Positions 52,622-64,000 of a DNA stretch of 64,000 bases are shown one piece after another. A program made the translations under genes and the position numbers. Source of the DNA: Xanthobacter sp. YC-JY1 (GTDB lineage Bacteria > Pseudomonadota > Alphaproteobacteria > Rhizobiales > Xanthobacteraceae); contig NZ_CP032674.1 of the NCBI RefSeq assembly GCF_021730305.1, positions 3,519,001 to 3,583,000 of the forward strand. Reading direction: 5' to 3'. The stretch's first letter is position 1; every line of letters starts with the position of its first letter. The notes below the pieces were generated by a model. It saw only the letters and a program-made list of their open reading frames with translations. It ran no database searches and was not told where the DNA came from.

Positions 52622-53140
52622 TCAGAGCAGATCGGACGAGGCCTGCCGTCCGCCATGGGCCGCGACGATTTTCTTCATGGCTTCAATGAATTGCTGCCGC
52701 TCCTCGGGCGTCAGCATCTCCACCGTCACCGCATGGGCGCGGCGGGCGGCAGCCTCCATCTCCTCCAGCAGGCGGCGCCCCTCCTCGGTGAGCGAGCAGC
52801 TTTGAGAGCGACGGTCGGTGGCCGACGTGCCGCGCCGCACGAGGCCCCGCGCCTCAAGGCGTTTCAAGGCCCCGGTGGTGGTGGTGCGATCCAGCGCGAC
52901 AATGCGCGACAGGGTGGTCTGGTCCGCCTCGGCGTGGTCCGCGAGCGCGGACAGCAGGCTGTATTGCACCGGCGTAACCCCGAACGGGGCACACAGCTCA
53001 GAAAACAGGCTGACATGGATCTGGTGCACCCGCCGTGCGAGGAAGCCCGGTCGGTCCGCGAGCGGCCAATCCTCATGGATCACGGCCTCGGGCTCCTCCT
53101 TGGAGGCCTTTGAATTTTTACGCGTTTTCGTCACGTCCAT
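52622..53140 (-). CDS. MarR-family regulator
   Basis: A 172-residue winged-helix protein. The core reads LFSELCAPFGVTPVQYSLLSALADHAEADQTTLSRIVALDRTTTTGALKRLEARGLVRRGTSATDRRSQSCSLTEEG, with the wing DRRS typical of MarR. It is divergent from the amidohydrolase operon, and a perfect palindrome lies between, so it probably represses that operon until a pathway compound binds. The N-terminus is Lys-rich. Confidence 0.88.
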   Translation of the reverse strand: MDVTKTRKNSKASKEEPEAVIHEDWPLADRPGFLARRVHQIHVSLFSELCAPFGVTPVQYSLLSALADHAEADQTTLSRIVALDRTTTTGALKRLEARGLVRRGTSATDRRSQSCSLTEEGRRLLEEMEAAARRAHAVTVEMLTPEERQQFIEAMKKIVAAHGGRQASSDLL

Positions 53141-53172: not shown

Positions 53173-53186
53173 TTGATCTAAATCAA
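53173..53186. promoter_or_regulatory. Perfect palindrome with FNR/FixK-box sequence
   Basis: TTGAT-CTAA-ATCAA matches the FNR/FixK consensus TTGAT-N4-ATCAA at every conserved base. It sits 33 bp from the marR start and 91 bp from the amidohydrolase start. Because it lies in a MarR-divergent spacer it could instead be the MarR operator; sequence alone does not decide. Confidence 0.6.
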
Positions 53187-53189
53187 AAC

Positions 53190-53205
53190 TGGCACGCGCC
53201 CTGCA
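53190..53205 (+). promoter_or_regulatory. Sigma-54-like promoter of the amidohydrolase operon
   Basis: TGGCAC-GCGCC-CTGCA differs from the -24/-12 consensus at a single conserved position (C for T) and keeps the exact GG/GC spacing. It lies 72 bp before the start codon at 53277 and 4 bp after the palindrome. Confidence 0.5.
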
Positions 53206-53276
53206 TTTGGAAAATGCGACGTATGCTTCGCTTTTCCAAGGCGGTCCCGAGACCGCACATGCATGGACGGAGACCC

Positions 53277-54557
53277 ATGATGGCTGAACCCGCCGGCTAC
53301 GATATCCTCCTCAAGGGCGGACATGTCATCTGCCCCGCCACCGGCATCAACGGCATACGCGACGTCGCCGTCCGCGATGGCCGCATCGCTGCGGTGGAGG
53401 AGACGATCCTCCCCTCCAGCGCCACGGAGACCATCGACGTCTCCGGCAAGCTGGTGCTGCCCGGCATGATCGACACCCATGGCCATATCTACCAGTACGT
53501 GACCGGCCGCTTCGGCCTCAACCCGGATATGGTGGGCGTGCATTCCGGCGTCACCACCGTGATCGACCAGGGCGGCCCCTCCTGCATGACTTTGCCGGGA
53601 TTCCGCAAGTTCATCGCCGAGCCGTCCGACACCCGCATCTATGCCTTCCTCTCCGCCTATCTCGTGGGCGGCCTCGAAGGCCATTACTACCCCAACCTCT
53701 ACAGCCCGGACTGCGTGGACATCGACGCCACCGTGCGCTCCGCCATCGCCAACCGGGATCTCGTGCGCGGCATCAAGGGCCATGCGGAGATCGGTGGCTT
53801 CGCCCGCTGGGGCATCCGGGTGATGGAGATGGCGGCGGAGATCGCCCGCCGCGCGGAAATCCCGCTCTACGTGCATTTCGGCACCCTCTGGGGCCTGCCG
53901 GAGAGCGGCGCCAACGGCGAGGACGCCGACACCATCCTCGAGCGCGTCATCCCGCTGCTGAAGGAAGGCGACGTGCTCGCCCATCCCTTCACCCGCCATC
54001 CCGGCGGCTTCGTGAACCAGAAGGGCGAGGTCCACCACGTCATCCAGGCGGCCCTCGACCGCGGGCTGAAGGTGGATGTGGGTCACGGCAGCCACTTCTC
54101 CTACCGCCTCGCGAAGAAGGCCATCGCCGCCGGCGTCGTGCCCCATACGCTGGGAGCCGACATGCACGGCTACAATACGCACGTCCCCGCCCCCGCCGGC
54201 ACGCCGGAGGAGCACTATGACGACGAGAACCACCCCTTCAAGGGCCAGGCGCGCTTCAGCCTCACGCAGGCGATGAGCTCCATGATGGCGCTCGGCCTCT
54301 CGCTGGAACAGGTGGTGCCCATGGTCACCATCAATCCCGCGAAGATGATCGGCCTCACCGACCGCGTCGGCTCGCTCACCGTGGGCTATGCGGCCGACAT
54401 CTCAGTGCTGGACGACAATCGCGGCCGCTTCCTGCTGCGCGACAACGAGGACACGAAAGTGGTGGCCGAGCGCCTGCTCACCCCCGCTTTCTGCCTGCGC
54501 GCCGGCAAGAAGTTCGACGCCGACGCCGTCATCCTGCCCCAGGCGGTGGCGGCGTGA
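53277..54557 (+). CDS. Amidohydrolase/deacetylase-family metallohydrolase
   Basis: A 426-residue TIM-barrel hydrolase (GGAGAC before ATG 53277; a second ATG follows directly). Metal ligands are visible: D66-T-H68-G-H70, a lysine for carbamylation K167 in GIKGHAE, and His residues in HFGT, HPFTRH and GHGSHFS, plus D295 in GADMHG. This is the binuclear cyclic-amidase type (D-aminoacylase, dihydroorotase or deacetylase-like). It opens a collinear block with a formamidase-like hydrolase and a molybdenum hydroxylase, so ring opening of a cyclic amide is likely; the substrate is unknown. Confidence 0.85.
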   Translation: MMAEPAGYDILLKGGHVICPATGINGIRDVAVRDGRIAAVEETILPSSATETIDVSGKLVLPGMIDTHGHIYQYVTGRFGLNPDMVGVHSGVTTVIDQGGPSCMTLPGFRKFIAEPSDTRIYAFLSAYLVGGLEGHYYPNLYSPDCVDIDATVRSAIANRDLVRGIKGHAEIGGFARWGIRVMEMAAEIARRAEIPLYVHFGTLWGLPESGANGEDADTILERVIPLLKEGDVLAHPFTRHPGGFVNQKGEVHHVIQAALDRGLKVDVGHGSHFSYRLAKKAIAAGVVPHTLGADMHGYNTHVPAPAGTPEEHYDDENHPFKGQARFSLTQAMSSMMALGLSLEQVVPMVTINPAKMIGLTDRVGSLTVGYAADISVLDDNRGRFLLRDNEDTKVVAERLLTPAFCLRAGKKFDADAVILPQAVAA

Positions 54558-55417
54558 GCCCGGCATCCGCAGCCGTTCGGCCGGCCCCGCAGGAGGTCTG
54601 GGACACCCTGTCCCAGGCCGAGCGGGATGCGGCTTACAACAACAATGCCGCGGTGAAGGACAGCGCGGCATGGGTCGAGGCGCGCGACAAGGCGGCCCCG
54701 CTTTTCCGCGCCGCCACGCCTGCCCATCTGGACATTCCCTATGGCTCTGGCGCCCGGCAGAAGCTGGACATCTATCCCGGCAAGCCGGGGGCGCCCTGCC
54801 TTTTCTTCATCCATGGCGGCTACTGGCAGCGCAACACCCGCGAGGTCTTCGCCCATTATGCGGAAGGCCTCCTCGCCCAGGGCTGGTCGGTGGCCATGCC
54901 CAGCTACACGCTGGCGCCGCAGGCACGCCTCGGCGCGATCGTCGATGAGATCGGCGCGGCGCTCGATCTCATCGGCAGGGATGGCGCGCAATATGGCCTC
55001 ACCGGTCCGGTGGTGATCTCCGGCTGGTCGGCGGGCGCACAGCTGGCGGTGATGCAGCTGGACCATCCCATTGTTGCCGCCGGCCTCGCCATCTCCGGCG
55101 TCTATGAATTGGCGCCGCTGCGCGACACCTTCCTGAACGCCGCGCTCGATCTCTCGGACGCGGAGATCGCCGCCTGCTCGCCGCTCCGTCACGACCCGTC
55201 GCCGAAGCCGCTGGCCATCGCCTACGGCACGGCCGAAGTGCCGGCGCTGGTGCACGATTCCCGCGCGCTGGCGGCAAAGCGCGTGGCCGCCCATGCGCCG
55301 GGGGCGCTGTTGCCCATCCTCGGCGCCAACCACTTCTCCATCCTCGACGAGTTGCGCCGGCACGACGGTCTTCTGGTGCGCGCGGCGCTCGACCTGATGC
55401 CGGGAGCCCACGCATGA
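54554..55417 (+). CDS. Alpha/beta hydrolase, kynurenine-formamidase-like
   Basis: A 287-residue alpha/beta hydrolase with GTG start overlapping the upstream stop. The oxyanion-hole motif is FFIHGGYW (H87), the nucleophile elbow GWSAGA (S159), and the general base probably H260 in GANHFS, all as in BNA7-type arylformamidases. The segment DAAYNNNAAVKDSAAWVEARDKAA also matches this group. It probably splits an amide or ester produced by the preceding amidohydrolase. It is coupled by overlaps on both sides. Confidence 0.83.
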   Translation: MSPASAAVRPAPQEVWDTLSQAERDAAYNNNAAVKDSAAWVEARDKAAPLFRAATPAHLDIPYGSGARQKLDIYPGKPGAPCLFFIHGGYWQRNTREVFAHYAEGLLAQGWSVAMPSYTLAPQARLGAIVDEIGAALDLIGRDGAQYGLTGPVVISGWSAGAQLAVMQLDHPIVAAGLAISGVYELAPLRDTFLNAALDLSDAEIAACSPLRHDPSPKPLAIAYGTAEVPALVHDSRALAAKRVAAHAPGALLPILGANHFSILDELRRHDGLLVRAALDLMPGAHA

Positions 55418-57771
55418 GCGAACCCCGGTCCCACGAGGGCGTCGGCGCCCGCCTTCCCCGGAAAGAAGACGACCGGCTGATGCGCGGGCGCGGCCAGTTC
55501 ATCGCCGACATCCGCATGGCGGGGATGCAGGACGTGGCCTTCGTCCGCAGCCCGCTGGCGCATGCGCGCATCCGCGCCATCCATGTGCCTGACGATCTGA
55601 AGGGCCGCGTCTTCACCGCCGCCGACCTCGACGGGGTGAAGCCCATCCGCGCCGTCTCCGGCCTGCCCGGCTTCAAGGTGTCGGAGCAGCCGGTGCTCGC
55701 CACCGGCAAGGTGCGGCAGGTGGGAGAGCTGATCGCCATGTGCGTCGCCGACACCCGCGCCGAGGCCGAGGACATGGCCGCCCGCGTGGAACTCGACCTC
55801 GAGGAGCTGCCCGCCCTCCACGACATGCTGGACGCCCGCAAGCCCGGCGCGGCGCTGGTGCACGAGCACTGGGGCGACAATGTCTTTCTCGAAAGCCTCG
55901 TGAACATCAACATCGAGGCCGCCTTCGACGCGCCGGTGAAGATTTCGCGCACCATCTCCACCGCCCGCCAGTGCATGGCGCCCATCGAGGGGCGCGGCAC
56001 GGTGGTGCATTTCGATCACCGCTCCGACCAGCTGGTGGTGCACACCGCCAGCCAGATGCCGCACATCGTCCGCTCGGGCCTCTCCGAATGCCTGGGGCTG
56101 GAAGAAGGACAGATCCGCATCATCTCCCCGGACGTGGGCGGCGGCTTCGGCTACAAGGCCATCCTGCTCAGCGAGGACGTCTGCCTGGGCTGGCTCACGC
56201 GGAAGATCGGCCGGCCGGTGCGCTGGCTGGAGGATCGCCGCGAGCACCTGACCGCCAGCGCCAATTGCCGCGAGCACCATTACGAAATCACGCTCTATGC
56301 CGAGCGCGACGGCACGCTGCGCGGCATCGATTGCGAGGCGAGCGTGGATAGCGGCGCCTATTCCGCCTATCCCTTCTCCGCGTGCCTTGAAGCCGCGCAG
56401 GTGGCGAGCATCCTGCCCGGCCCCTACGACTTCCCGGCCTATCGCTGCCGCACCTGGTCGGTGGCCACCAACAAGTGCCCGATCCTGCCCTATCGCGGCG
56501 TGGCGCGCACCGGCGTGTGCTTCGCGCTGGAAGTGGCGCTGGATGCGCTGGCGGCCGAACTCGGCCTCGCCCCGGAAGTGGTGCGCCTGAAGAACCTCGT
56601 GCGGCCCGAGCAGATGCCGTTCGACAACATCACCAACAAGCATTTCGACAGCGGCAACTATCCGGAAGCTCTCCGGCAGGCGCTGGACGCCATCAAGGCC
56701 GATGCGGTGCGCACGCGCCAGCTCGCGGGGGAGCCGGACGGCCGCCGCATCGGCCTTGGCCTCTCCATCTATTGCGAGCAGGCCGCCCACGGCACCTCGG
56801 TCTATTCCGGCTGGGGCATTCCCATGGTGCCCGGCCACGAGCAGGCCGGCGCGCGCCTCACCCCGGACGGCGGGCTGGAACTGCGCATCGGCGCCCATTC
56901 CCACGGCCAGGGGCTGGAGACGACGCTGGCGCAGGTGGCCCACGAAATCCTCGGCATGCCGGTCGCCCGCACCCGCCTCGTTCATGGCGACACGGCCATG
57001 ACGCCCTATTCCACCGGCAGCTGGGGCTCTCGGGTGATGGTGATGGCCGGCGGCGCCGTGGCCACCGCCTGCACCGAGCTGTCCGAGCGCATCCGCCGCA
57101 TCGGCGCGCACATGCTCCAGGCGCGGCCGGAGGATGTGCGGCTGGAAGCCGGGCGCGTCATCGGCCCGTCCGGCGACGTGACCATCCAGCAGGTGGCCCA
57201 CACCTGGTATCGCCGCCCGCAGGACCTGCCGGCGGACGTGGACCCCCACGGCCTCGAAGTCACCGCCGGCTACAAGCCGGTGCGCGACAGCGGCACGTTC
57301 AGCTACGCCGCCCACGCGGTGGTCGTTGCGGTGGACCCCGACCTCGGCGAGGTGGAGATCCTCGATTACGCCATCGTGGAAGACGGCGGCACGCTGGTGA
57401 ACCCCATGGTGGTGGACGGCCAGATCATCGGCGGCCTCGCCCAGGGCATCGGCACTGCACTCTACGAAGAGATGGCGTTCGACGCCTCCGGCCAGCCGCT
57501 CGCCTCGACGCTGGCGGACTATCTGCTGCCCGGCGCGCCGGAAGTGCCCATGCCCTTCATCGGCCACATGGAAACGCCCTCGCCCTATACCAAGTTCGGC
57601 GTGAAGGGCATCGGCGAGGGCGGGGCCATCGCGCCGCCCGCCGCCATAGCCAACGCCATCAACGACGCACTGCGCCCGCTGGGCGCGGAGATGCTGCGCT
57701 CCCCCGTGACGCCCCGGCGCATCGTGGAGCAGGTGCTGGCGGTGCGCGCCGGCGAAAGGAGCGCGGCATGA
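55414..57771 (+). CDS. Molybdenum hydroxylase large subunit (xanthine dehydrogenase/CO dehydrogenase family)
   Basis: A 785-residue molybdopterin-cytosine-dinucleotide-type subunit of normal length. It starts VGARLPRKEDDRLMRGRGQFIADI, has the Moco contacts GGGFGYKAI and PYRGVARTG, HSHGQGLETTLAQV, and the catalytic glutamate E735 in GIGEGGAIAPPAAIANA. The active-site loop is not the CoxL VAYRCSFR, so this is not CO dehydrogenase. It would hydroxylate an aromatic or heterocyclic substrate using water. The FAD and Fe-S subunits follow with ATGA overlaps. Confidence 0.92.
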   Translation: MSEPRSHEGVGARLPRKEDDRLMRGRGQFIADIRMAGMQDVAFVRSPLAHARIRAIHVPDDLKGRVFTAADLDGVKPIRAVSGLPGFKVSEQPVLATGKVRQVGELIAMCVADTRAEAEDMAARVELDLEELPALHDMLDARKPGAALVHEHWGDNVFLESLVNINIEAAFDAPVKISRTISTARQCMAPIEGRGTVVHFDHRSDQLVVHTASQMPHIVRSGLSECLGLEEGQIRIISPDVGGGFGYKAILLSEDVCLGWLTRKIGRPVRWLEDRREHLTASANCREHHYEITLYAERDGTLRGIDCEASVDSGAYSAYPFSACLEAAQVASILPGPYDFPAYRCRTWSVATNKCPILPYRGVARTGVCFALEVALDALAAELGLAPEVVRLKNLVRPEQMPFDNITNKHFDSGNYPEALRQALDAIKADAVRTRQLAGEPDGRRIGLGLSIYCEQAAHGTSVYSGWGIPMVPGHEQAGARLTPDGGLELRIGAHSHGQGLETTLAQVAHEILGMPVARTRLVHGDTAMTPYSTGSWGSRVMVMAGGAVATACTELSERIRRIGAHMLQARPEDVRLEAGRVIGPSGDVTIQQVAHTWYRRPQDLPADVDPHGLEVTAGYKPVRDSGTFSYAAHAVVVAVDPDLGEVEILDYAIVEDGGTLVNPMVVDGQIIGGLAQGIGTALYEEMAFDASGQPLASTLADYLLPGAPEVPMPFIGHMETPSPYTKFGVKGIGEGGAIAPPAAIANAINDALRPLGAEMLRSPVTPRRIVEQVLAVRAGERSAA

Positions 57772-58631
57772 AGCCCGCACCCTTCCGCATCGAGCGCCCG
57801 CGCACCATCGCCGACGCTGTCGCGCTCCTCGCCTCGGGCGGAGACGGCGCCAAGGTGATGGCCGGGGGCCAGTCCCTCGGCCCCATGCTCAATCTGCGCC
57901 TCGCGACACCCGACCTGATCGTCGATCTCTCCGGCATCGACGCGCTCCGCTCCATGCGCGAAGAGGCCGGGCACATGGTCTATGGCGCCCTCGTCACCCA
58001 CGCCGATGTGGAGGACGGCCGCGCGCCGGACGTGGGCGCGAACATTCTCCGGCGGGTGGCCGGCGGCATCGCCTATCGCGCCGTGCGCAACCGCGGCACC
58101 ATGGGCGGCAGCCTCTCCCACGCCGATCCCGCCGCCGACTGGGTGAACGCTTTGTCCGTGCTCGGTGCGGAGGTGGAGATCGCCGGACCGGCGGGCACGC
58201 GCCGCCTCGCCATGGGCGCCTTCCTCGCCGGAGCGCTCGCCACGGCGCTGGAGCCGGGCGAGATCCTTGTTTCCGTGCGAGTGCCCAAGGTGCCCGCCAC
58301 CGCGCGCTTCGGCTATGTGAAGCACTGCCGCAAGGTGGGCGAGTTCGCCCACGCCATCGGCGCCGTGCTGATCGATCCCACCACCGGCACCGGCCGCGCG
58401 CTGATGGGCGCCATCGACGCGCCACCCCTCGTCTTCGCCGACGCCGCGACGCTCTTCGGCGGCCAGATCGATGCCGGCTTCGCCACGCGCTTCGACGCAT
58501 CCGCCGCCGATGCTGCGCTCGCCGCCGCCGGCATGGCGGACGCGGTGGACCGCCATGTGCATGTGGAGGTGCTGCGCCGCGCCGCCACGCAGGCCGCCAG
58601 CCTCTTCACCGACACGCGGAGCGCGGCATGA
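57768..58631 (+). CDS. Molybdenum hydroxylase FAD-binding medium subunit
   Basis: A 287-residue CoxM-type subunit: FAD motifs AGGQSLGPMLNLRLATPDLIVDL (about 33-55) and RNRGTMGGSLSHADPAADW (about 105-123), and a C-terminal CO-dehydrogenase-flavoprotein domain. It carries electrons from the Fe-S subunit to the final acceptor. It sits between the large subunit and the Fe-S/CoxG fusion with four-base overlaps each side. Confidence 0.92.
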   Translation: MKPAPFRIERPRTIADAVALLASGGDGAKVMAGGQSLGPMLNLRLATPDLIVDLSGIDALRSMREEAGHMVYGALVTHADVEDGRAPDVGANILRRVAGGIAYRAVRNRGTMGGSLSHADPAADWVNALSVLGAEVEIAGPAGTRRLAMGAFLAGALATALEPGEILVSVRVPKVPATARFGYVKHCRKVGEFAHAIGAVLIDPTTGTGRALMGAIDAPPLVFADAATLFGGQIDAGFATRFDASAADAALAAAGMADAVDRHVHVEVLRRAATQAASLFTDTRSAA

Positions 58632-59842
58632 CCGCTTCGCCAAGGCCCGAGACCATCGCCATGGGCGCGTCCCGCATGATTTCGCTGACCCTCAACGGCC
58701 GTCCCGTGACGGCCGAGGCGGAGGGGCGCACCAACCTCGCCGATTTCGTGCGTGACACGCTGAATTTCACCGGCACCCATCTCGGCTGCGAGCACGGTGT
58801 GTGCGGCGCCTGCACCATCCTCGTGGACGGTGAGCCGGCGCGCGCCTGCCTCTCCTTCGCCGGCGCCTGCCAGGGGGCCGATGTCGTCACCATCGAGGGG
58901 CTGGACGACGATCCCGTCACCACCGAATTGCGCGCCGCCTTCAATCGCGAGCACGCGCTCCAGTGCGGCTTCTGCACGCCGGGCATGCTGGTCTCCGCCC
59001 GCGACCTCGTGCTGCGCCTGCCCGAGGCGGACGAGACCCGCATCCGCCTCGGCCTCGCCGGCAATCTCTGCCGCTGCACCGGCTATGCGGGCATCGTGAA
59101 GGCCGTGGCCTCCGTCATCGCCGCACGGCGGGCACAGGGCATCGGCCCCATGACCGCCGACCGGCCTCTTGGCCCGGTGGGCGCGCGGGCGGGGGGAGCG
59201 GTTTCCGCGGCCCAGCCGGCGAGCGTTGCCATCACGGCGCTGCCGTCCTCCGTCACCACCTCCCTCGCCGAGGATTTCACACCTGCCCACAGCTTCGAAC
59301 AGAGCTTCGAGGTGCCCTTCCCGCCGGCCGAGGTATTCGCCTTCTTCGGCCGCATCGAGGAGGTCGCCGCCTGCCTGCCGGGCGCGGTCATTGATGCCAT
59401 GCCCTCGCCGGAAAACGTGCAGGGCGGGATGCGGGTGAAGCTCGGCCCCATCGCCACCACCTTCCGCGGCAGCGCCCGCATCGGCCGCGATGACGCGACT
59501 ACGAGCGGCACCATCCATGGCGCGGGGGCGGACGGGCGCTCGCGCACGGAAGGCCTCATCCGCTATCGCGTCACGGACGGCGCTGCGCCCGGCACCGCCC
59601 GCGTGGTGCTCGACGTGGGCTACACGCTGAAAGGGCCGCTCGCCCAATTCGGCCGCCCCGGCCTCGTGCGCGAGGTGGCGGGACGTCTCATCGCCGAGTT
59701 CGCCGCGAACCTCGAGGCCCGCCTTTCCGGGAGCGAGGCCCCGCCCGCCGAGGCGCGCGGCCTCGATCCGCTCAAGCTTCTCATCTCGCTCGTTTCCGAC
59801 TGCCTTGGCCGCCTGTGGCGCCGCGGCGGCCCCACTTCTTGA
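58628..59842 (+). CDS. [2Fe-2S] small subunit fused to a CoxG-like SRPBCC domain
   Basis: A 404-residue fusion. Residues about 17-170 are a CoxS-type protein with both clusters: CEHGVCGACT plus Cys of ARACLS (plant-type) and CGFCTPGM...CRCTGY (alpha-helical). A linker of about 50 residues leads to a CoxG/SRPBCC domain (about 218-375; SFEQSFEVPFPPAEVFAFFGRIEEVAACLPGA) and a hydrophobic C-terminal stretch LKLLISLVSDCLGRL. CoxG in CO oxidisers helps attach the enzyme to the membrane; fusion here would tether the Mo-hydroxylase. In-frame ATGs at 58661 and 58676 are alternative starts. Confidence 0.9.
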   Translation: MTASPRPETIAMGASRMISLTLNGRPVTAEAEGRTNLADFVRDTLNFTGTHLGCEHGVCGACTILVDGEPARACLSFAGACQGADVVTIEGLDDDPVTTELRAAFNREHALQCGFCTPGMLVSARDLVLRLPEADETRIRLGLAGNLCRCTGYAGIVKAVASVIAARRAQGIGPMTADRPLGPVGARAGGAVSAAQPASVAITALPSSVTTSLAEDFTPAHSFEQSFEVPFPPAEVFAFFGRIEEVAACLPGAVIDAMPSPENVQGGMRVKLGPIATTFRGSARIGRDDATTSGTIHGAGADGRSRTEGLIRYRVTDGAAPGTARVVLDVGYTLKGPLAQFGRPGLVREVAGRLIAEFAANLEARLSGSEAPPAEARGLDPLKLLISLVSDCLGRLWRRGGPTS

Positions 59843-59876
59843 CCCTGACTGCCCCTTTCGAGACTGGAGACCAACC

Positions 59877-61037
59877 ATGTTGATGTCACGCCGGACGACA
59901 CTCGCCGCTCTCGCCTTCAGCCTTCTCGCCGGCACGGCCTTCGCCGCCGACACCATCAAGATCGGCGTCAACGAGCCCCTCACCGGCGCCTTCGCGGCGT
60001 CCGGCACCTATGTGGTGAACGGCGCCAAGATCGCCGCCGACGAGATCAACGCCAAGGGCGGCATTCTCGGCAAGAAGGTCGAGCTGGTCATCGAGGACAA
60101 CAAGAGCAACCCGACCGAGGCCGCCTCGGTGGCCGAGAAGCTCATCACCTCCGACAAGGTGCCGGTGCTGATGGGCGCGTGGGGCTCCTCGCTGACGCTG
60201 GCCACCATGCCGAAGCTGGAGGAATATTCCGTGCCGATGCTGGTGGAGACCTCCTCCTCCGGCAAGATCACCACCTCCGGCAACCCCTTCATCTTCCGCA
60301 TCTCGCCGCCCTCCTCCGTCGAGGCCGAGGCGTTCGAGCCCAGCGTCAAGAAGCTCGGCCTGAAGAAGGTGGACTTCCTTGTCATCAACAACGACTGGGG
60401 CCGCGGCGCCGCCGCCGACTTCTCCAAGATGCTGAAGGCCAACGGCGTCGAGGTCGGCCTCGTGGAGACCATGGACCAGTCGGCCCAGGACATGAGCGCC
60501 CAGCTCGCCAAGCTGAAGGCCTCCGACGCCGACACCATCATGGTGACCAGCGCCGTCGACCAGCTGACCCTGCTGTTCAAGCAGATGGCGGCCCTCGGCC
60601 TGAAGAAGCGCATCATCACCACCGGCGGCTCGCAGAACCCGGACCAGATCATCGCCCAGGCCGGCGCTGCGGCGGACGGCACCATGCACCTCACCACCTT
60701 CCTGCCCTGGTGGCCGGAGAAGACCCCGAACCCCGAAGCCACCGCCTACTTCCTCGGCGAGTGGAAGAAGCGCGGCTTCGACTTCGCCGGCGCCACCGAG
60801 AGCTTCCGTGGCTATGACGGCATCCGCACCGTCGCGGCCGCCATCGCGGCGGGCGGCGGCACCGACCCGGCCTCCATCCAGAAGGGCTTCTGGAAGGTGG
60901 ACTTCATGGGCCTCAACGGTCCCATCAAGTTCAACAAGAGCGGCCCGGCGGGCAAGGAGAGCGGCCAGTCCAAGCCCAACGTCTACATCATCGAAATCTC
61001 CGGCGGGAAGGTGAACCAGGTTCAGCTCGGCGGCTGA
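59877..61037 (+). CDS. Branched-chain-amino-acid-type ABC substrate-binding protein (LivK-like)
   Basis: From ATG 59877 (TGGAGA at 59865-59870) the protein has 386 residues, a signal peptide ending TAFAAD, then TIKIGVNEPLTGAFAASGTYVVNGAKIAADEINAKGGILGKKVELVIEDNKSNP, the family 4 binding-protein signature. Such proteins bind amino acids, amides, urea or aromatics. Its position after a Mo-hydroxylase operon suggests it captures the pathway substrate. Only 34 bp separate it from the fusion gene, so the cluster may be one transcript. Confidence 0.88.
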   Translation: MLMSRRTTLAALAFSLLAGTAFAADTIKIGVNEPLTGAFAASGTYVVNGAKIAADEINAKGGILGKKVELVIEDNKSNPTEAASVAEKLITSDKVPVLMGAWGSSLTLATMPKLEEYSVPMLVETSSSGKITTSGNPFIFRISPPSSVEAEAFEPSVKKLGLKKVDFLVINNDWGRGAAADFSKMLKANGVEVGLVETMDQSAQDMSAQLAKLKASDADTIMVTSAVDQLTLLFKQMAALGLKKRIITTGGSQNPDQIIAQAGAAADGTMHLTTFLPWWPEKTPNPEATAYFLGEWKKRGFDFAGATESFRGYDGIRTVAAAIAAGGGTDPASIQKGFWKVDFMGLNGPIKFNKSGPAGKESGQSKPNVYIIEISGGKVNQVQLGG

Positions 61038-61137
61038 GCCGGCACTTCTCAAATCCCCGCCCTCGGGCGGCGCTTCAGGTGAGGGACGGCGAAGGTCGCC
61101 CCTCACCCTGCCCCGAACGCCAGACCGGACAGGCCAG

Positions 61138-62010
61138 ATGGACCAATTGCTGCAACACATCTTCAACGCGCTGGTGCTCGGCGGCACCTATGCGCTCCTG
61201 GGCATCGGCCTCACCTTGATCTTCGGCATCATGAACGTGGTGAACTTCACCCATGGTGCCCTCTACACCTTCGGCGGCTACGCCATGTATCTGGCGGCGG
61301 TGGCGCTGGGGCTGAACTTCTTCGTCGCGCTGCCGGTGGCCCTCGTGGCCGGCCTCGTGCTCGGCGCGATCATCGAATTCACCCTGCTGCGGCCGCTGCG
61401 GCGCTCTGACATCGACACCACCATGCTGGTGATGATCGGCGCCGGCATCATCATGCAGTCCGGCACGCTCTGGATCTTCGGCGGCGTCGCCAAGGCGGTG
61501 CCCACGCCCTTCCCGGCGCAGCCGCTCACCTTCGGGCCGGTGTCGCTCTCCTATGTGAACCTGTTCGTGCTGTGCGCGGCGGTGGCGCTCATCGCCATCA
61601 CCTACTTCACCATCAACGGCACCAAGCTCGGCCGCGCCATGCGCGCCACCTTCCAGGACCACGACACGGCCGCTTTGATGGGAGTCAACGTCTCCCTCAT
61701 CTACACCGCCACCTTCGCCATCGGCTCGGCGCTGGCATCGGCGGCGGGCGCGCTGCTCGGGCCGGTCTATGTGGTGACGCCGCAGATGGGCGACCTCGCC
61801 GCGGTGAAGGCCTTCGCCATCGTCATTCTCGGCGGCCTCGGCTCCATCTCGGGTGCCACCATCGGCGGCTTCATCCTCGCCTTCGCCGAAGAGCTGGGCG
61901 CCGGCTACATCTCCTCGGGATATCGCGACGCCATGGGCTTCCTCATCATTATCGCGGTTCTGCTGGTGAAGCCCACCGGCCTGTTCGCGCGTGCGGAGCG
62001 GATCGGATGA
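61138..62010 (+). CDS. Branched-chain-type ABC permease (LivH-like)
   Basis: A 290-residue permease with eight or so TM segments. LVLGGTYALLGIGLTLIFGIMNVVNFTHGALYTFGGYA and GRAMRATFQDHDTAALMGVNVSLIY are LivH signatures. The 100-bp gap before it is the largest in the transporter operon and shows no clear promoter. The stop overlaps the LivM-like start. Confidence 0.9.
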   Translation: MDQLLQHIFNALVLGGTYALLGIGLTLIFGIMNVVNFTHGALYTFGGYAMYLAAVALGLNFFVALPVALVAGLVLGAIIEFTLLRPLRRSDIDTTMLVMIGAGIIMQSGTLWIFGGVAKAVPTPFPAQPLTFGPVSLSYVNLFVLCAAVALIAITYFTINGTKLGRAMRATFQDHDTAALMGVNVSLIYTATFAIGSALASAAGALLGPVYVVTPQMGDLAAVKAFAIVILGGLGSISGATIGGFILAFAEELGAGYISSGYRDAMGFLIIIAVLLVKPTGLFARAERIG

Positions 62011-63056
62011 CGCGCTTCATCGCCCCCCTCTTCCTCGTCGTCTTCGCCCTGCTGCCGCTGGGCCTGACCGACCCCTATCTGCTGAATGCCCTCATCATCA
62101 CGGGCATCCTCACCATCTGCGCCATGAGCCTCAACCTGCTGCTCGGCTTCACCGGGCAGCTCAGCCTCGGGCATGTGGCCTTCTTCGGCATCGGCGCCTA
62201 TGTGAGCGCGCTCACCGCGCTGGGTTTCGACGTGAGCCTGCCGTTCGGCCTGCGCGTGACCCACGAGGGCGGCTCGCCGCTCCTCGGCTTCGTGCTCGCC
62301 ATCGTGCTCACCGGGCTCTGCGGCTATCTCATCGGGCGGCTGTCGTTCCGGGTGCGCGGCGCCTACTTCGTCATCGTCACCATCTCGTTCGCCGAGGTGG
62401 TGCGGCTCGTGGCGCTGAACTGGGTGGAGCTGACACAGGGCCCCCTCGCCCTCACCGCCATTCCCAACATGGTGCTGCCGGTGCCGAGCATCGGCGACGT
62501 GGCGCTGCGCTCCAAGATGCAGAACTATTATCTGGTGTTGGCGGTTGGGGTGGCGAGCTATCTCCTCATCGCGCGCCTCGTCGCCTCGCGCTTCGGACGG
62601 GCCATGCGGGGGCTGAAGGAGAACGAATCCCTCGCCCTCTCTCTCGGCATCAACGCCACCCGCACGCTCACCGTCGCCGCCACCGTCTCGGCCGCGATGG
62701 CGGGGGCAGCGGGCAGCCTTTATGCCCACTACATCCGCATCATCGATCCCGACGTGTTCCTGTTCTCCTACACCGTCACCATGGTCATCATGGTGGTCTC
62801 CGGCGGTAAGGGCACCTTGGCGGGGCCGCTGGTGGGCGGCATCATCTTCGGCCTGCTGCCGGTGGCGCTGCGCCCGGTGATGGCGCCGGAAGCGCAGTGG
62901 ATCGTCTACGGCGCCATCCTCATCGCCATCCTGTTCCTGATGCCACGCGGCATCGTGCCGGCACTGGAAGGCCTCGGCGAACGCATCGCCGCACGCCGCA
63001 AGGCCGGCGACAAGCCGACGGACGCGATGCCTGCCAAGATGGGAGCGAACCCATGA
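62007..63056 (+). CDS. Branched-chain-type ABC permease (LivM-like)
   Basis: A 349-residue permease with MSLNLLLGFTGQLSLGHVAFFGIGAYVSALT near the N-terminus and SRFGRAMRGLKENESLALSLGINATRT, both typical of LivM. About ten TM segments; the last 25 residues are cytoplasmic and charged. It pairs with the LivH-like protein to form the channel. Confidence 0.9.
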   Translation: MTRFIAPLFLVVFALLPLGLTDPYLLNALIITGILTICAMSLNLLLGFTGQLSLGHVAFFGIGAYVSALTALGFDVSLPFGLRVTHEGGSPLLGFVLAIVLTGLCGYLIGRLSFRVRGAYFVIVTISFAEVVRLVALNWVELTQGPLALTAIPNMVLPVPSIGDVALRSKMQNYYLVLAVGVASYLLIARLVASRFGRAMRGLKENESLALSLGINATRTLTVAATVSAAMAGAAGSLYAHYIRIIDPDVFLFSYTVTMVIMVVSGGKGTLAGPLVGGIIFGLLPVALRPVMAPEAQWIVYGAILIAILFLMPRGIVPALEGLGERIAARRKAGDKPTDAMPAKMGANP

Positions 63057-63877
63057 GCACGACGAGCAGCAGCGCCATCCTGAACGTGGAGCACGTGGGC
63101 ATGAAGTTCGGCGGCCTCACGGCCATCGCCGACCTGCATTTCGACGTGCATGAGGGCGAAATCCTGAGCCTCATCGGCCCCAACGGTGCCGGCAAGACCA
63201 CCGCCTTCAACATCATGACCGGCTTCCTCAAGCCCACGCAGGGCCGGGTGCTGTTCCGTGGCCGCGACCTCTCGCAGACCCGGCCGAACGAGATCGCCCG
63301 CCTGGGTCTTGCCCGCACCTTCCAGCGCACCAGCGTGTTCGCCGACGACAGCGTGCGGGACAACGTGCTCATCGGCCTCCACCGCTTCGGCGACGACACG
63401 CGCGCGACGGCCCTCCTCGACCGCCTCTTCCCCACCCCCGCCGCACGGCGGGCCGAGAATGCGGTGCGCGAGCGGGCCGAGGCCATCATCGACATGGTGG
63501 GCCTTTCCGCCCGCGCCGGCGACAAGGCCGGCTCCCTCTCCTATGGCGAGCAGCGCCTCGTGGGCTTCGCGCTGGCGCTGGCGGTGGAACCCAAGATGCT
63601 GCTGCTGGACGAGCCGGTCTCCGGCATGAACGCCTCGGAGACACAGGGCTTCGTGCGCCTCATCCGAAAGGTGCGGGACGAGGGCGTCACCATCCTCCTC
63701 GTGGAGCACGACATGCCCATGGTGATGGAGGTCTCCGACCGCATCGTCTGCCTCAACTATGGCCGCCTGATCGCGGAGGGCCCACCCGAGGCCATCCGCA
63801 CCGATCCCAAGGTCATCGAGGCCTATCTCGGCAAGAGCGCCGCGAAGCTGGAGCAGCGGGAGGTGGCCCATGCTTGA
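63053..63877 (+). CDS. Branched-chain-type ABC ATP-binding protein (LivG-like)
   Basis: A 274-residue ATPase: Walker A GPNGAGKTT (Lys48), signature SLSYGEQRLVGFALAL (a LivG-type LSYGxQR variation), Walker B MLLLDEPVSGMN and TILLVEHDMPMVMEVSDRI. The family-specific FARTFQ region reads LARTFQRTSVF. It overlaps livM-like and livF-like genes at both ends. Confidence 0.92.
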   Translation: MSTTSSSAILNVEHVGMKFGGLTAIADLHFDVHEGEILSLIGPNGAGKTTAFNIMTGFLKPTQGRVLFRGRDLSQTRPNEIARLGLARTFQRTSVFADDSVRDNVLIGLHRFGDDTRATALLDRLFPTPAARRAENAVRERAEAIIDMVGLSARAGDKAGSLSYGEQRLVGFALALAVEPKMLLLDEPVSGMNASETQGFVRLIRKVRDEGVTILLVEHDMPMVMEVSDRIVCLNYGRLIAEGPPEAIRTDPKVIEAYLGKSAAKLEQREVAHA

Positions 63878-64000
63878 GATTTCCGATCTCGTCTGCGGCT
63901 ATGGACAGGTGGCCGCACTCCGGGGCATCTCGCTGACCGTCGGGGAGGGGCAGCTGGTGGCGCTGGTGGGCGCCAACGGCGCGGGCAAGTCCACGACGCT
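63870..64000 (+). CDS. Branched-chain-type ABC ATP-binding protein (LivF-like), 3'-truncated by the window edge
   Basis: Forty-three codons are visible: LEISDLVCGYGQVAALRGISLTVGEGQLVALVGANGAGKSTT, including the complete Walker A. The CGYGQ-like segment and position after livG identify the second ATPase of the Liv-type transporter. The gene overlaps the livG-like 3' end by 8 bp and runs off the window. Confidence 0.88.
   Translation, partial: MLEISDLVCGYGQVAALRGISLTVGEGQLVALVGANGAGKSTT

Follow-up and report, generated by a model that had tools for sequence, protein, structure and literature searches.

A conserved Xanthobacter operon joining a Liv-type importer, a molybdenum hydroxylase and a cog3964-type amidohydrolase: a candidate route for nucleobase-type N-heterocycles

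Among the described systems closest to the operon reported here are the reductive urate pathway, whose last enzyme splits diaminopropionate and for which a variant with an F420-type reductase has been proposed in Chloroflexota (excerpts of PMC12507026), and the Hpx/All oxalurate branch, in which AllFGH serves as the oxamic transcarbamylase that splits oxalurate in E. coli (excerpts of PMC11326118) and HpxY is named oxalurate amidohydrolase (excerpts of PMC12625717). The operon lies in a 64,000-bp stretch of Xanthobacter sp. YC-JY1 (the window; bases 3519001-3583000 of a complete 5.39-Mb genome) and combines an amidohydrolase (AMH), an alpha/beta hydrolase (ABH), the large, FAD-binding and [2Fe-2S] subunits of a molybdenum hydroxylase (MoL, MoM and MoS; together MoLMS) and a Liv-type importer with its substrate-binding protein (SBP). 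On balance, we lean towards reading it as an inducible operon for the catabolism of a nucleobase-type N-heterocycle, that is, a purine or the precursor of a cyclic ureide or imide. A ring of this type is suggested because links to NCS1 permeases, to AllG-, HpxY-, HpxZ- and HpxW-like proteins, to a phosphoribosyltransferase, to purine clusters and to a reductive-urate-like gene set appear across lineages; purine is our first guess at the substrate, with uracil or thymine, imidazole- or hydantoin-type rings and pyrazine or pyridine acids as alternatives. Read directly from the sequence are the gene content and how far it is conserved, the operator, and the fact that accessory modules are swapped. 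In the open-licence literature we found neither a paper assigning a substrate to this cluster nor an orthologous cluster tied to a known one.

Organisation and conservation of the operon

A protein scan of genome contigs returned 38 loci with an AMH relative and, with plasmid records and sampled genomes added, 69 loci other than the window (47 to 99% AMH identity) were compared. Compared loci are given L-numbers and genomes G-numbers, G000 being the window's own genome; one genome stands twice among the 69 (L032 = L098). Gene presence was judged by fixed bit thresholds, and several contigs are short, so that the misses include those. The nearest named relative at the locus is Xanthobacter aminoxidans (AMH 99% identical), with the limit that records very close to the window may be missing. 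The genome-neighbourhood comparison of AMH and MoL, proposed when the locus was read from the sequence alone (the sequence-only reading), found MoL near AMH in 61/69 loci. Because MoM and MoS are likewise present in 53/69 each, a MarR homologue in 47/69 and SBP in 36/69, the cluster is, by its gene content, conserved and not a chance grouping. Of the 69 loci, 32 have ABH, 20 a small Rieske protein and 14 AllG. The AMH subfamily is itself uncommon among the genomes sampled, being found in 18/385 genomes of the class (G000 counted; E <=1e-90) and in 4/341 genomes of the order of G610.

The features of the locus, in window coordinates, are as follows.

52622..53140, minus strand: divergent MarR-family regulator (Pfam MarR_2, 52.8 bits)
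53173..53186, no strand: presumed FNR/FixK-type box TTGATCTAAATCAA, with the sole exact TTGATNNNNATCAA in the window
53214..53233, no strand: palindromic operator, consensus ATRCGAAGNNNNCTTCGYAT, 2 mismatches here; probable MarR site
53277..54557, plus strand: AMH, cog3964/PRK09237-type amidohydrolase with a complete binuclear metal site (NCBIfam NF006689, 443 bits)
54554..55417, plus strand: ABH, lipase/arylformamidase-like alpha/beta hydrolase (BD-FAE, Abhydrolase_3; best PDB match 9n8r)
55414..57771, plus strand: MoL, large (molybdopterin) subunit of the Mo-hydroxylase (MoCoBD_1, MoCoBD_2, Ald_Xan_dh_C)
57768..58631, plus strand: MoM, FAD-binding subunit (FAD_binding_5, 150 bits)
58628..59842, plus strand: MoS, [2Fe-2S] subunit with a C-terminal CoxG/SRPBCC domain (Fer2_2, 86.8 bits; COXG, 39.6 bits)
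59877..61037, plus strand: SBP, Liv-type substrate-binding protein (Peripla_BP_6, 217 bits)
61138..62010, plus strand: LivH-type permease (BPD_transp_2)
62007..63056, plus strand: LivM-type permease (BPD_transp_2)
63053..63877, plus strand: LivG-type ATPase (ABC_tran, BCA_ABC_TP_C)
63870..64000, plus strand: LivF-type ATPase, starting in the window, the gene running to 64574 outside it (L009:12870-13574; orthologues in 34/69 loci)

Specifically, ten plus-strand genes follow one another in the order AMH-ABH-MoL-MoM-MoS-SBP-LivH-LivM-LivG-LivF, and the MarR gene lies divergently on the opposite side. Family scans confirmed every gene class that the sequence-only reading had named and their collinearity; its "nine or more" genes become ten plus the divergent MarR gene, and the CoxG domain of MoS (39.6 bits) is a detail beyond it. 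The stop/start overlaps and short gaps that it described are six 4-base overlaps, one of 8 bases between LivG and LivF, and gaps of 34 bp ahead of SBP and 100 bp ahead of LivH. AMH starts with the ATG at 53277, while the residue numbers used below begin one codon earlier (53274) and count one extra residue. LivF was read beyond the window in L009 (window coordinate = L009 coordinate + 51000). The gene after LivF is on the opposite strand; this convergent gene (L009:13636-15006, minus strand) looks O-GlcNAc-transferase/SPINDLY-like by eye.

At several loci (L073, L075-L078 and L119) MoL stands without detectable MoM and MoS downstream. In L076-L078 AllG comes next, in L075 and L119 an MsrB-like frame seen by eye; L072 and L074 end too early for the presence of MoM and MoS to be judged.

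The enzymes and the importer

AMH passes the NCBIfam model NF006689 (443 bits, cut-off 371), which places it in the cog3964/PRK09237 group, and the ligands His69, His71, Lys168, His201, His237 and Asp296 are kept in at least 97% of 70 sequences, bearing out the binuclear amidohydrolase first recognised from motifs. Activities ascribed to this group are acetyl-(R)-mandelate hydrolysis and deacetylation. In a predicted structure the first eleven fold matches are chains of 8wzy, 8je0, 2ogj and 2ics (TM 0.69-0.74 on the query; identity to the best fold matches 21-28%), followed by dihydroorotases, molinate hydrolase, allantoinases, triazine hydrolases and hydantoinase; the model is middling (mean pLDDT 77, 63 residues below 50, 20 sequences of the 69 loci's kind in the alignment) and speaks for the fold class only. 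The residues after the metal-bridging Lys are G-H-A-E in the AMH clade and V-R-A-S in 2ogj and, since they differ, the clade is, by its sequence, a distinct cog3964 subfamily.

ABH scores 184 bits against 9n8r ('Lipase 1'), 94 against 2pbl and, weakly, 39 against the kynurenine formamidase 4e11. With so weak a match, the deformylation step proposed earlier is not supported. ABH accompanies AMH only where AMH identity is at least 70% (32/42 loci, against 0/27 below), and in L033, L035, L071, L099 and L100 it lies elsewhere in the fetched locus, not adjoining AMH.

MoL is, judged by its matches, a xanthine-oxidase-family hydroxylase nearest to quinoline 2-oxidoreductase. CO dehydrogenase was rejected, as the sequence-only reading had held, by scores of 459 of 991 and 534 of 950 bits against two cut-offs, and MoL reads PYRGVAR at the site of what we take to be the CoxL motif, AYxCSFR. 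Classical xanthine dehydrogenase was rejected in the same manner (XdhA, PucD and XdhB models: 347 of 780, 330 of 916, 270 of 784 and 165 of 850 bits). Within NCBIfam, MoM and MoS score highest against glyceraldehyde dehydrogenase models, which rank second for MoL; none of these scores reaches its cut-off.

With regard to the importer, SBP meets the wider Peripla_BP_6 family, whereas a branched-chain amino acid SBP identity was rejected by the curated cut-off of that model (132 of 477 bits).

A MoL paralogue in G000 itself (L123, G000:C1:257121-259445; 57% identical) has its own MoM and MoS and a Rieske-type match, and the ring-hydroxylating dioxygenase there is 73% identical to its Paracoccus counterpart; L123 is probably a second, pyridine-type heterocycle locus of this genome.

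Promoter elements and accessory modules at related loci

The palindrome at 53214-53233 is a probable MarR site. The operator, with at most 3 mismatches, was found upstream of AMH in 39/42 regions with AMH identity >75% (window included, one genome twice), being missing at that level in L040, L046 and L047, and in 0/28 regions with lower AMH identity, where L076 stands at 4 mismatches. Among 100 composition shuffles each, none equalled the operator in 38/39 regions, and in L056 one did. Across 12 genomes the pattern occurs at 1 to 7 places per genome, compared to 1 to 4 for a reversed control pattern. Besides the AMH promoter, the places found in this wider regulon search include the promoters of NCS1 permease genes in G421 and G578 and another place with 1 mismatch at G617:C138; the window's own operator site has 2 mismatches to the pattern, as do two other places in G000.

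Upstream of the operator, an exact TTGATNNNNATCAA at 53173 is the only one in the window (expected 0.01; 1/100 shuffles had one), and its first base is the position from which the sequence-only reading had begun the locus. The same box lies upstream of AMH in 5/70 regions, namely the window, L010, L012, L013 and L014, all Xanthobacter or Azorhizobium. If the box is of the FNR/FixK type, as we presume, it suggests low-oxygen control of the operon. A promoter and terminator scan gave output about equal to that of shuffles.

In G421 and G578, which belong to the same family as G000, a second operator copy stands directly upstream of the NCS1 permease gene, with 0 and 1 mismatches, respectively (1 and 2 under an earlier search pattern). 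The best PDB relative of this permease is the Mhp1 hydantoin permease, at merely 42 bits. In L038 the gene next after MoS encodes an 81% identical NCS1 permease. A dihydropyrimidinase beside NCS1 in L099 is convergent, with one other locus match (L085, 32%), and was not used.

AllG and HpxY are confined to loci with AMH identity <70% (14/27 and 5/27, against 0/42 above). At the level of the locus, 32 of the 69 have ABH only, 15 AllG or HpxY only, none both and 22 neither (Fisher P about 2e-5, weakened by shared ancestry). Because ABH and AllG/HpxY never occur together at these loci, ABH may perform an amide or acylurea hydrolysis akin to the AllG/HpxY step. The AllG-type arrangement is plainest in Azospirillum ramasamyi, with the order GGT - SBP - LivHMGF - MoL - MoM - MoS - SRPBCC - amidase - HpxZ - MarR - AllG and AMH close by on the opposite strand. 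The best PDB match of the Azospirillum GGT is 5hft, which we take to be the HpxW oxamate amidohydrolase (two chains, 330 and 272 bits, against 255 for the next entry). In the Caballeronia AMH/MoL operon, Pfam assigns the DUF1116 protein to AllG and HpxZ to an AtzH-like family, and the amidase passes PRK08310 (526 of 391 bits) and fails AtzE (202 of 426). Since no HpxY is named among the amidase PDB matches, of which 2dc0 is the best, the label HpxY rests on context and family.

In genus g231 (G360 and G270) the AMH-MoL-AllG genes lie about 5-7 kb from a purine cluster. Family scans of G360 (L128) matched a xanthine permease, HIUase, PuuE allantoinase, OHCU decarboxylase, urate oxidase and FdrA/AllF, in addition to an HpxW-like GGT (56%) and an AllG-like match; G270 (L129) has a GGT (54%), an AllG-like match and, by eye, purine-cluster-like reading frames. 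AllH was found in 3/11 genomes tested (G360, G270 and G438). A phosphoribosyltransferase (PRK06031, 303 bits, cut-off 175) is present in 6/69 loci; in L079, L081 and L084 it lies, with a PhyH-type dioxygenase and a Rieske protein, near AMH, MoL and AllG, and the MoL of L079 groups with that of Pacificitalea in the MoL tree. L101 (L101:7033-11155) has AMH and AllG without MoL, together with an SDR and a 2OG-Fe(II) oxygenase, which are a possible substitute for the Mo-hydroxylase.

A further set of modules accompanies MoL on Sinorhizobium pSymA, where MoL, SBP and LivF are 75%, 62% and 69% identical to those of the window. In the MoL tree (FastTree, 38 sequences chosen for diversity) the Sinorhizobium MoL joins ten window-clade sequences with support 1.0, those ten alone having 0.81. 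AMH was not found in the Sinorhizobium locus L103, and five Sinorhizobium records carry some AMH relative. By annotation, the pSymA locus encodes CofC, CofD, an F420-type LLM oxidoreductase, an M20 deacylase, a diaminopropionate ammonia-lyase and transhydrogenase; other F420 genes, CoA-transferase subunits and a PyrC-like dihydroorotase, whose frame is interrupted in S. meliloti R14 (L103, L108), were seen by eye. The lyase passes its general curated cut-off (517 of 276 bits). These gene kinds look like those of the reductive urate route, as if from an F420-dependent relative of it. The F420-type LLM and the diaminopropionate ammonia-lyase were each found in 0/69 AMH loci at the thresholds used. 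L120, a locus outside the 69, has MoLMS, a 49% AMH, a 34% LLM protein and, by eye, a large oxoprolinase-like frame, and possibly bridges AMH and the F420-type modules.

According to excerpts of PMC8407117, nodule competitiveness is associated with k-mers from a 26-kb stretch of pSymA in strains GR4, KH35c and KH46, and the table for this region includes F420 genes, PyrC, M20, diaminopropionate ammonia-lyase, LivF, PntAB and a 'putative caffeine dehydrogenase'. Because these entries match our gene list and a GR4 plasmid is among the MoL matches, we infer that this region is the Sinorhizobium locus described above.

Candidate substrates and comparison with known systems

In the route that we favour, the Liv importer would take up the ring compound, MoLMS would add oxygen at the ring carbon or carbons adjoining nitrogen to give a cyclic imide or ureide, AMH would open this ring by hydrolysis to an acylurea or oxalyl amide, and ABH would split the resulting N-acyl product (acylurea or amide). 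Other lineages may assign the step of ABH to AllG-, HpxY-, HpxZ- and HpxW-like proteins, and oxamate and oxalate would be expected there. MarR would repress the operon until substrate or product binds, an FNR/FixK-type activator would add low-oxygen control in some Xanthobacter and Azorhizobium relatives, and CoxG may tether the hydroxylase to the membrane. The uptake, hydroxylation and ring opening of an N-heterocycle, as first proposed, are thus retained and narrowed to the nucleobase type, backed by the NCS1 gene behind the operator, the oxalurate/oxamate-type genes and the reductive-urate-like set of Sinorhizobium. More tentatively, and with real doubt, these loci may represent an undescribed oxidative purine or cyclic-ureide route of Alpha- and Betaproteobacteria, leading from nucleobase to acylurea or oxalyl amide, with swappable finishing modules (ABH; AllG-HpxYZ-HpxW; the F420-dependent diaminopropionate branch of Sinorhizobium).

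A number of observations weigh against a nucleobase-type substrate. The best PDB match of MoL is quinoline 2-oxidoreductase (483 bits), and pyridine-ring genes stand at some loci of the nearest outside MoL clade (9 sequences, support 0.96). HIUase-family matches were found in 18/20 AMH hosts tested, G000 included (21/25 of all genomes tested; AMH hosts G003 and G013 are without any), and therefore the ordinary urate route probably coexists in AMH hosts; the operon as its hosts' only purine route is ruled out by the same count. AllG, found in 6/21 genomes tested, lies elsewhere in the genomes of the ABH-type hosts G012 and G031, and the exclusion of ABH and AllG fails at the genome level. AllH is missing in 7/10 tested genomes with AllG at the AMH locus, and therefore a lone AllG may do another reaction; neither AllG nor AllH was found in the G000 genome, AllF and the Hpx genes not having been sought genome-wide. 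The operator and the oxalurate-type genes sit in different clades. In Sinorhizobium, the lyase fails the YgeX-type cut-off (343 of 532 bits) and the M20 protein that of YgeY (91 of 322 bits). Finally, NCS1 is present in 4/69 loci and has a convincing operator in 2 of them, the mismatches being 5 and 8 in the other two, L038 and L015; a distant Liv set (29-55%) and an ABC system of the amino-acid type are likewise present in L038, and NCS1 was not found in the G000 genome. The NCS1-operator evidence is therefore suggestive but narrow.

The first of these points leads to an azine carboxylate (picolinate- or nicotinate-like, or pyrazine-2-carboxylate) that MoLMS would hydroxylate, with AMH opening the lactam and ABH deacylating the product. 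We consider this unlikely, although MoL homologues at 48-54% stand beside NicX/NicD-like genes, one outside-clade locus is in G000 itself (at 257 kb) and pyrazinoate would, as we infer, supply an oxalyl unit as well as the skeleton of diaminopropionate. In the MoL tree the pyridine-type loci fall into a clade of their own; in the window-clade loci searched, NicC/D/X/F-like proteins are confined to a separate cluster of Azospirillum argentinense L060, the sole further match being a 26% NicD-like one in L086. Pyridine acid (nic/pic) genes, 2,5-dihydroxypyridine dioxygenase and maleamate-type hydrolases, present beside the outside-clade homologues, are none of them among the ten operon genes, and the links to NCS1, AllG, HpxW and phosphoribosyltransferase would be left unexplained. 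An oxidative pyrimidine route, in which MoLMS converts uracil or thymine to barbiturate, AMH is a new barbiturase and ABH or AllG/HpxYZ cleaves the acylurea (ureidomalonate), fits the chemistry, as C6 of uracil adjoins N1 and the product would be an acylurea. It would also suit NCS1 permeases, which include pyrimidine carriers, and L101, where an SDR and a 2OG oxygenase accompany AMH and AllG. A malonate product, however, would fit neither HpxW (oxamate) nor diaminopropionate ammonia-lyase, and malonyl-CoA genes were seen only in L061, about 12 kb from AMH (annotated records viewed; not searched for elsewhere), so that we hold this route to be distinctly unlikely.

It is quite improbable that the operon serves ester or aldehyde catabolism, with MoLMS oxidising an aldehyde, ABH acting as an esterase and AMH as one like the acetyl-(R)-mandelate hydrolases, which we take to be cog3964 members. 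The glyceraldehyde dehydrogenase matches and the lipase as best PDB relative of ABH are in its favour, but the AMH clade has K-G-H-A-E where 2ogj has K-V-R-A-S, and the links to NCS1, AllG, HpxY/Z/W, PyrC and M20 would go unexplained. We give very little credence to the importer and the enzymes being mere neighbours, with an importer that carries amino acids: the gaps ahead of SBP and LivH, the generic Liv annotation and the many loci without importer would agree with it, but importer and enzymes stand together in 36 loci, and Sinorhizobium L103, in which no AMH was found, has the importer beside MoLMS as well.

If the nucleobase reading is true, it would add a breakdown route whose genes now pass as 'branched-chain amino acid transporter' and 'xanthine dehydrogenase family protein' in annotations. 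The cog3964 amidohydrolases would gain a physiological role, and the association of the 26-kb pSymA F420 region with nodule competitiveness in Sinorhizobium meliloti, as given in excerpts of PMC8407117, would have an explanation open to testing. Through the rare operator and the swappable modules, the substrate itself can be tested directly.

In conclusion, the operon can be set against four described systems. With the reductive urate pathway (E. coli xdhD-ygfK-ssnA-hyuA-ygeWXY; excerpts of PMC12507026) it shares the Mo-hydroxylase family and ring opening by the amidohydrolase superfamily, and the Sinorhizobium sister locus adds an F420-type LLM protein, M20 and diaminopropionate ammonia-lyase; the window operon, in contrast, is without reductase, M20 and lyase, its AMH is cog3964-type, unlike SsnA and HyuA, and it has a Liv importer, MarR and ABH. 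With the Hpx/All oxalurate branch (HpxWXYZ; AllFGH), distant AMH/MoL operons share AllG and HpxY-, HpxZ- and HpxW-like genes, whereas the window operon contains none of them and AllG was not found in G000. Quinoline 2-oxidoreductase is the closest solved enzyme to MoL and the picolinate/nicotinate-type Mo-hydroxylases its closest outside clade, while the ten operon genes include no pyridine-ring genes and MoL falls in a separate clade. The cog3964 amidohydrolases (2ogj, 8wzy, 8je0 and 2ics) are the best sequence and structure matches of AMH, alike in fold and metal ligands, but differ from it in the residues after the metal-bridging Lys and are 21-28% identical.

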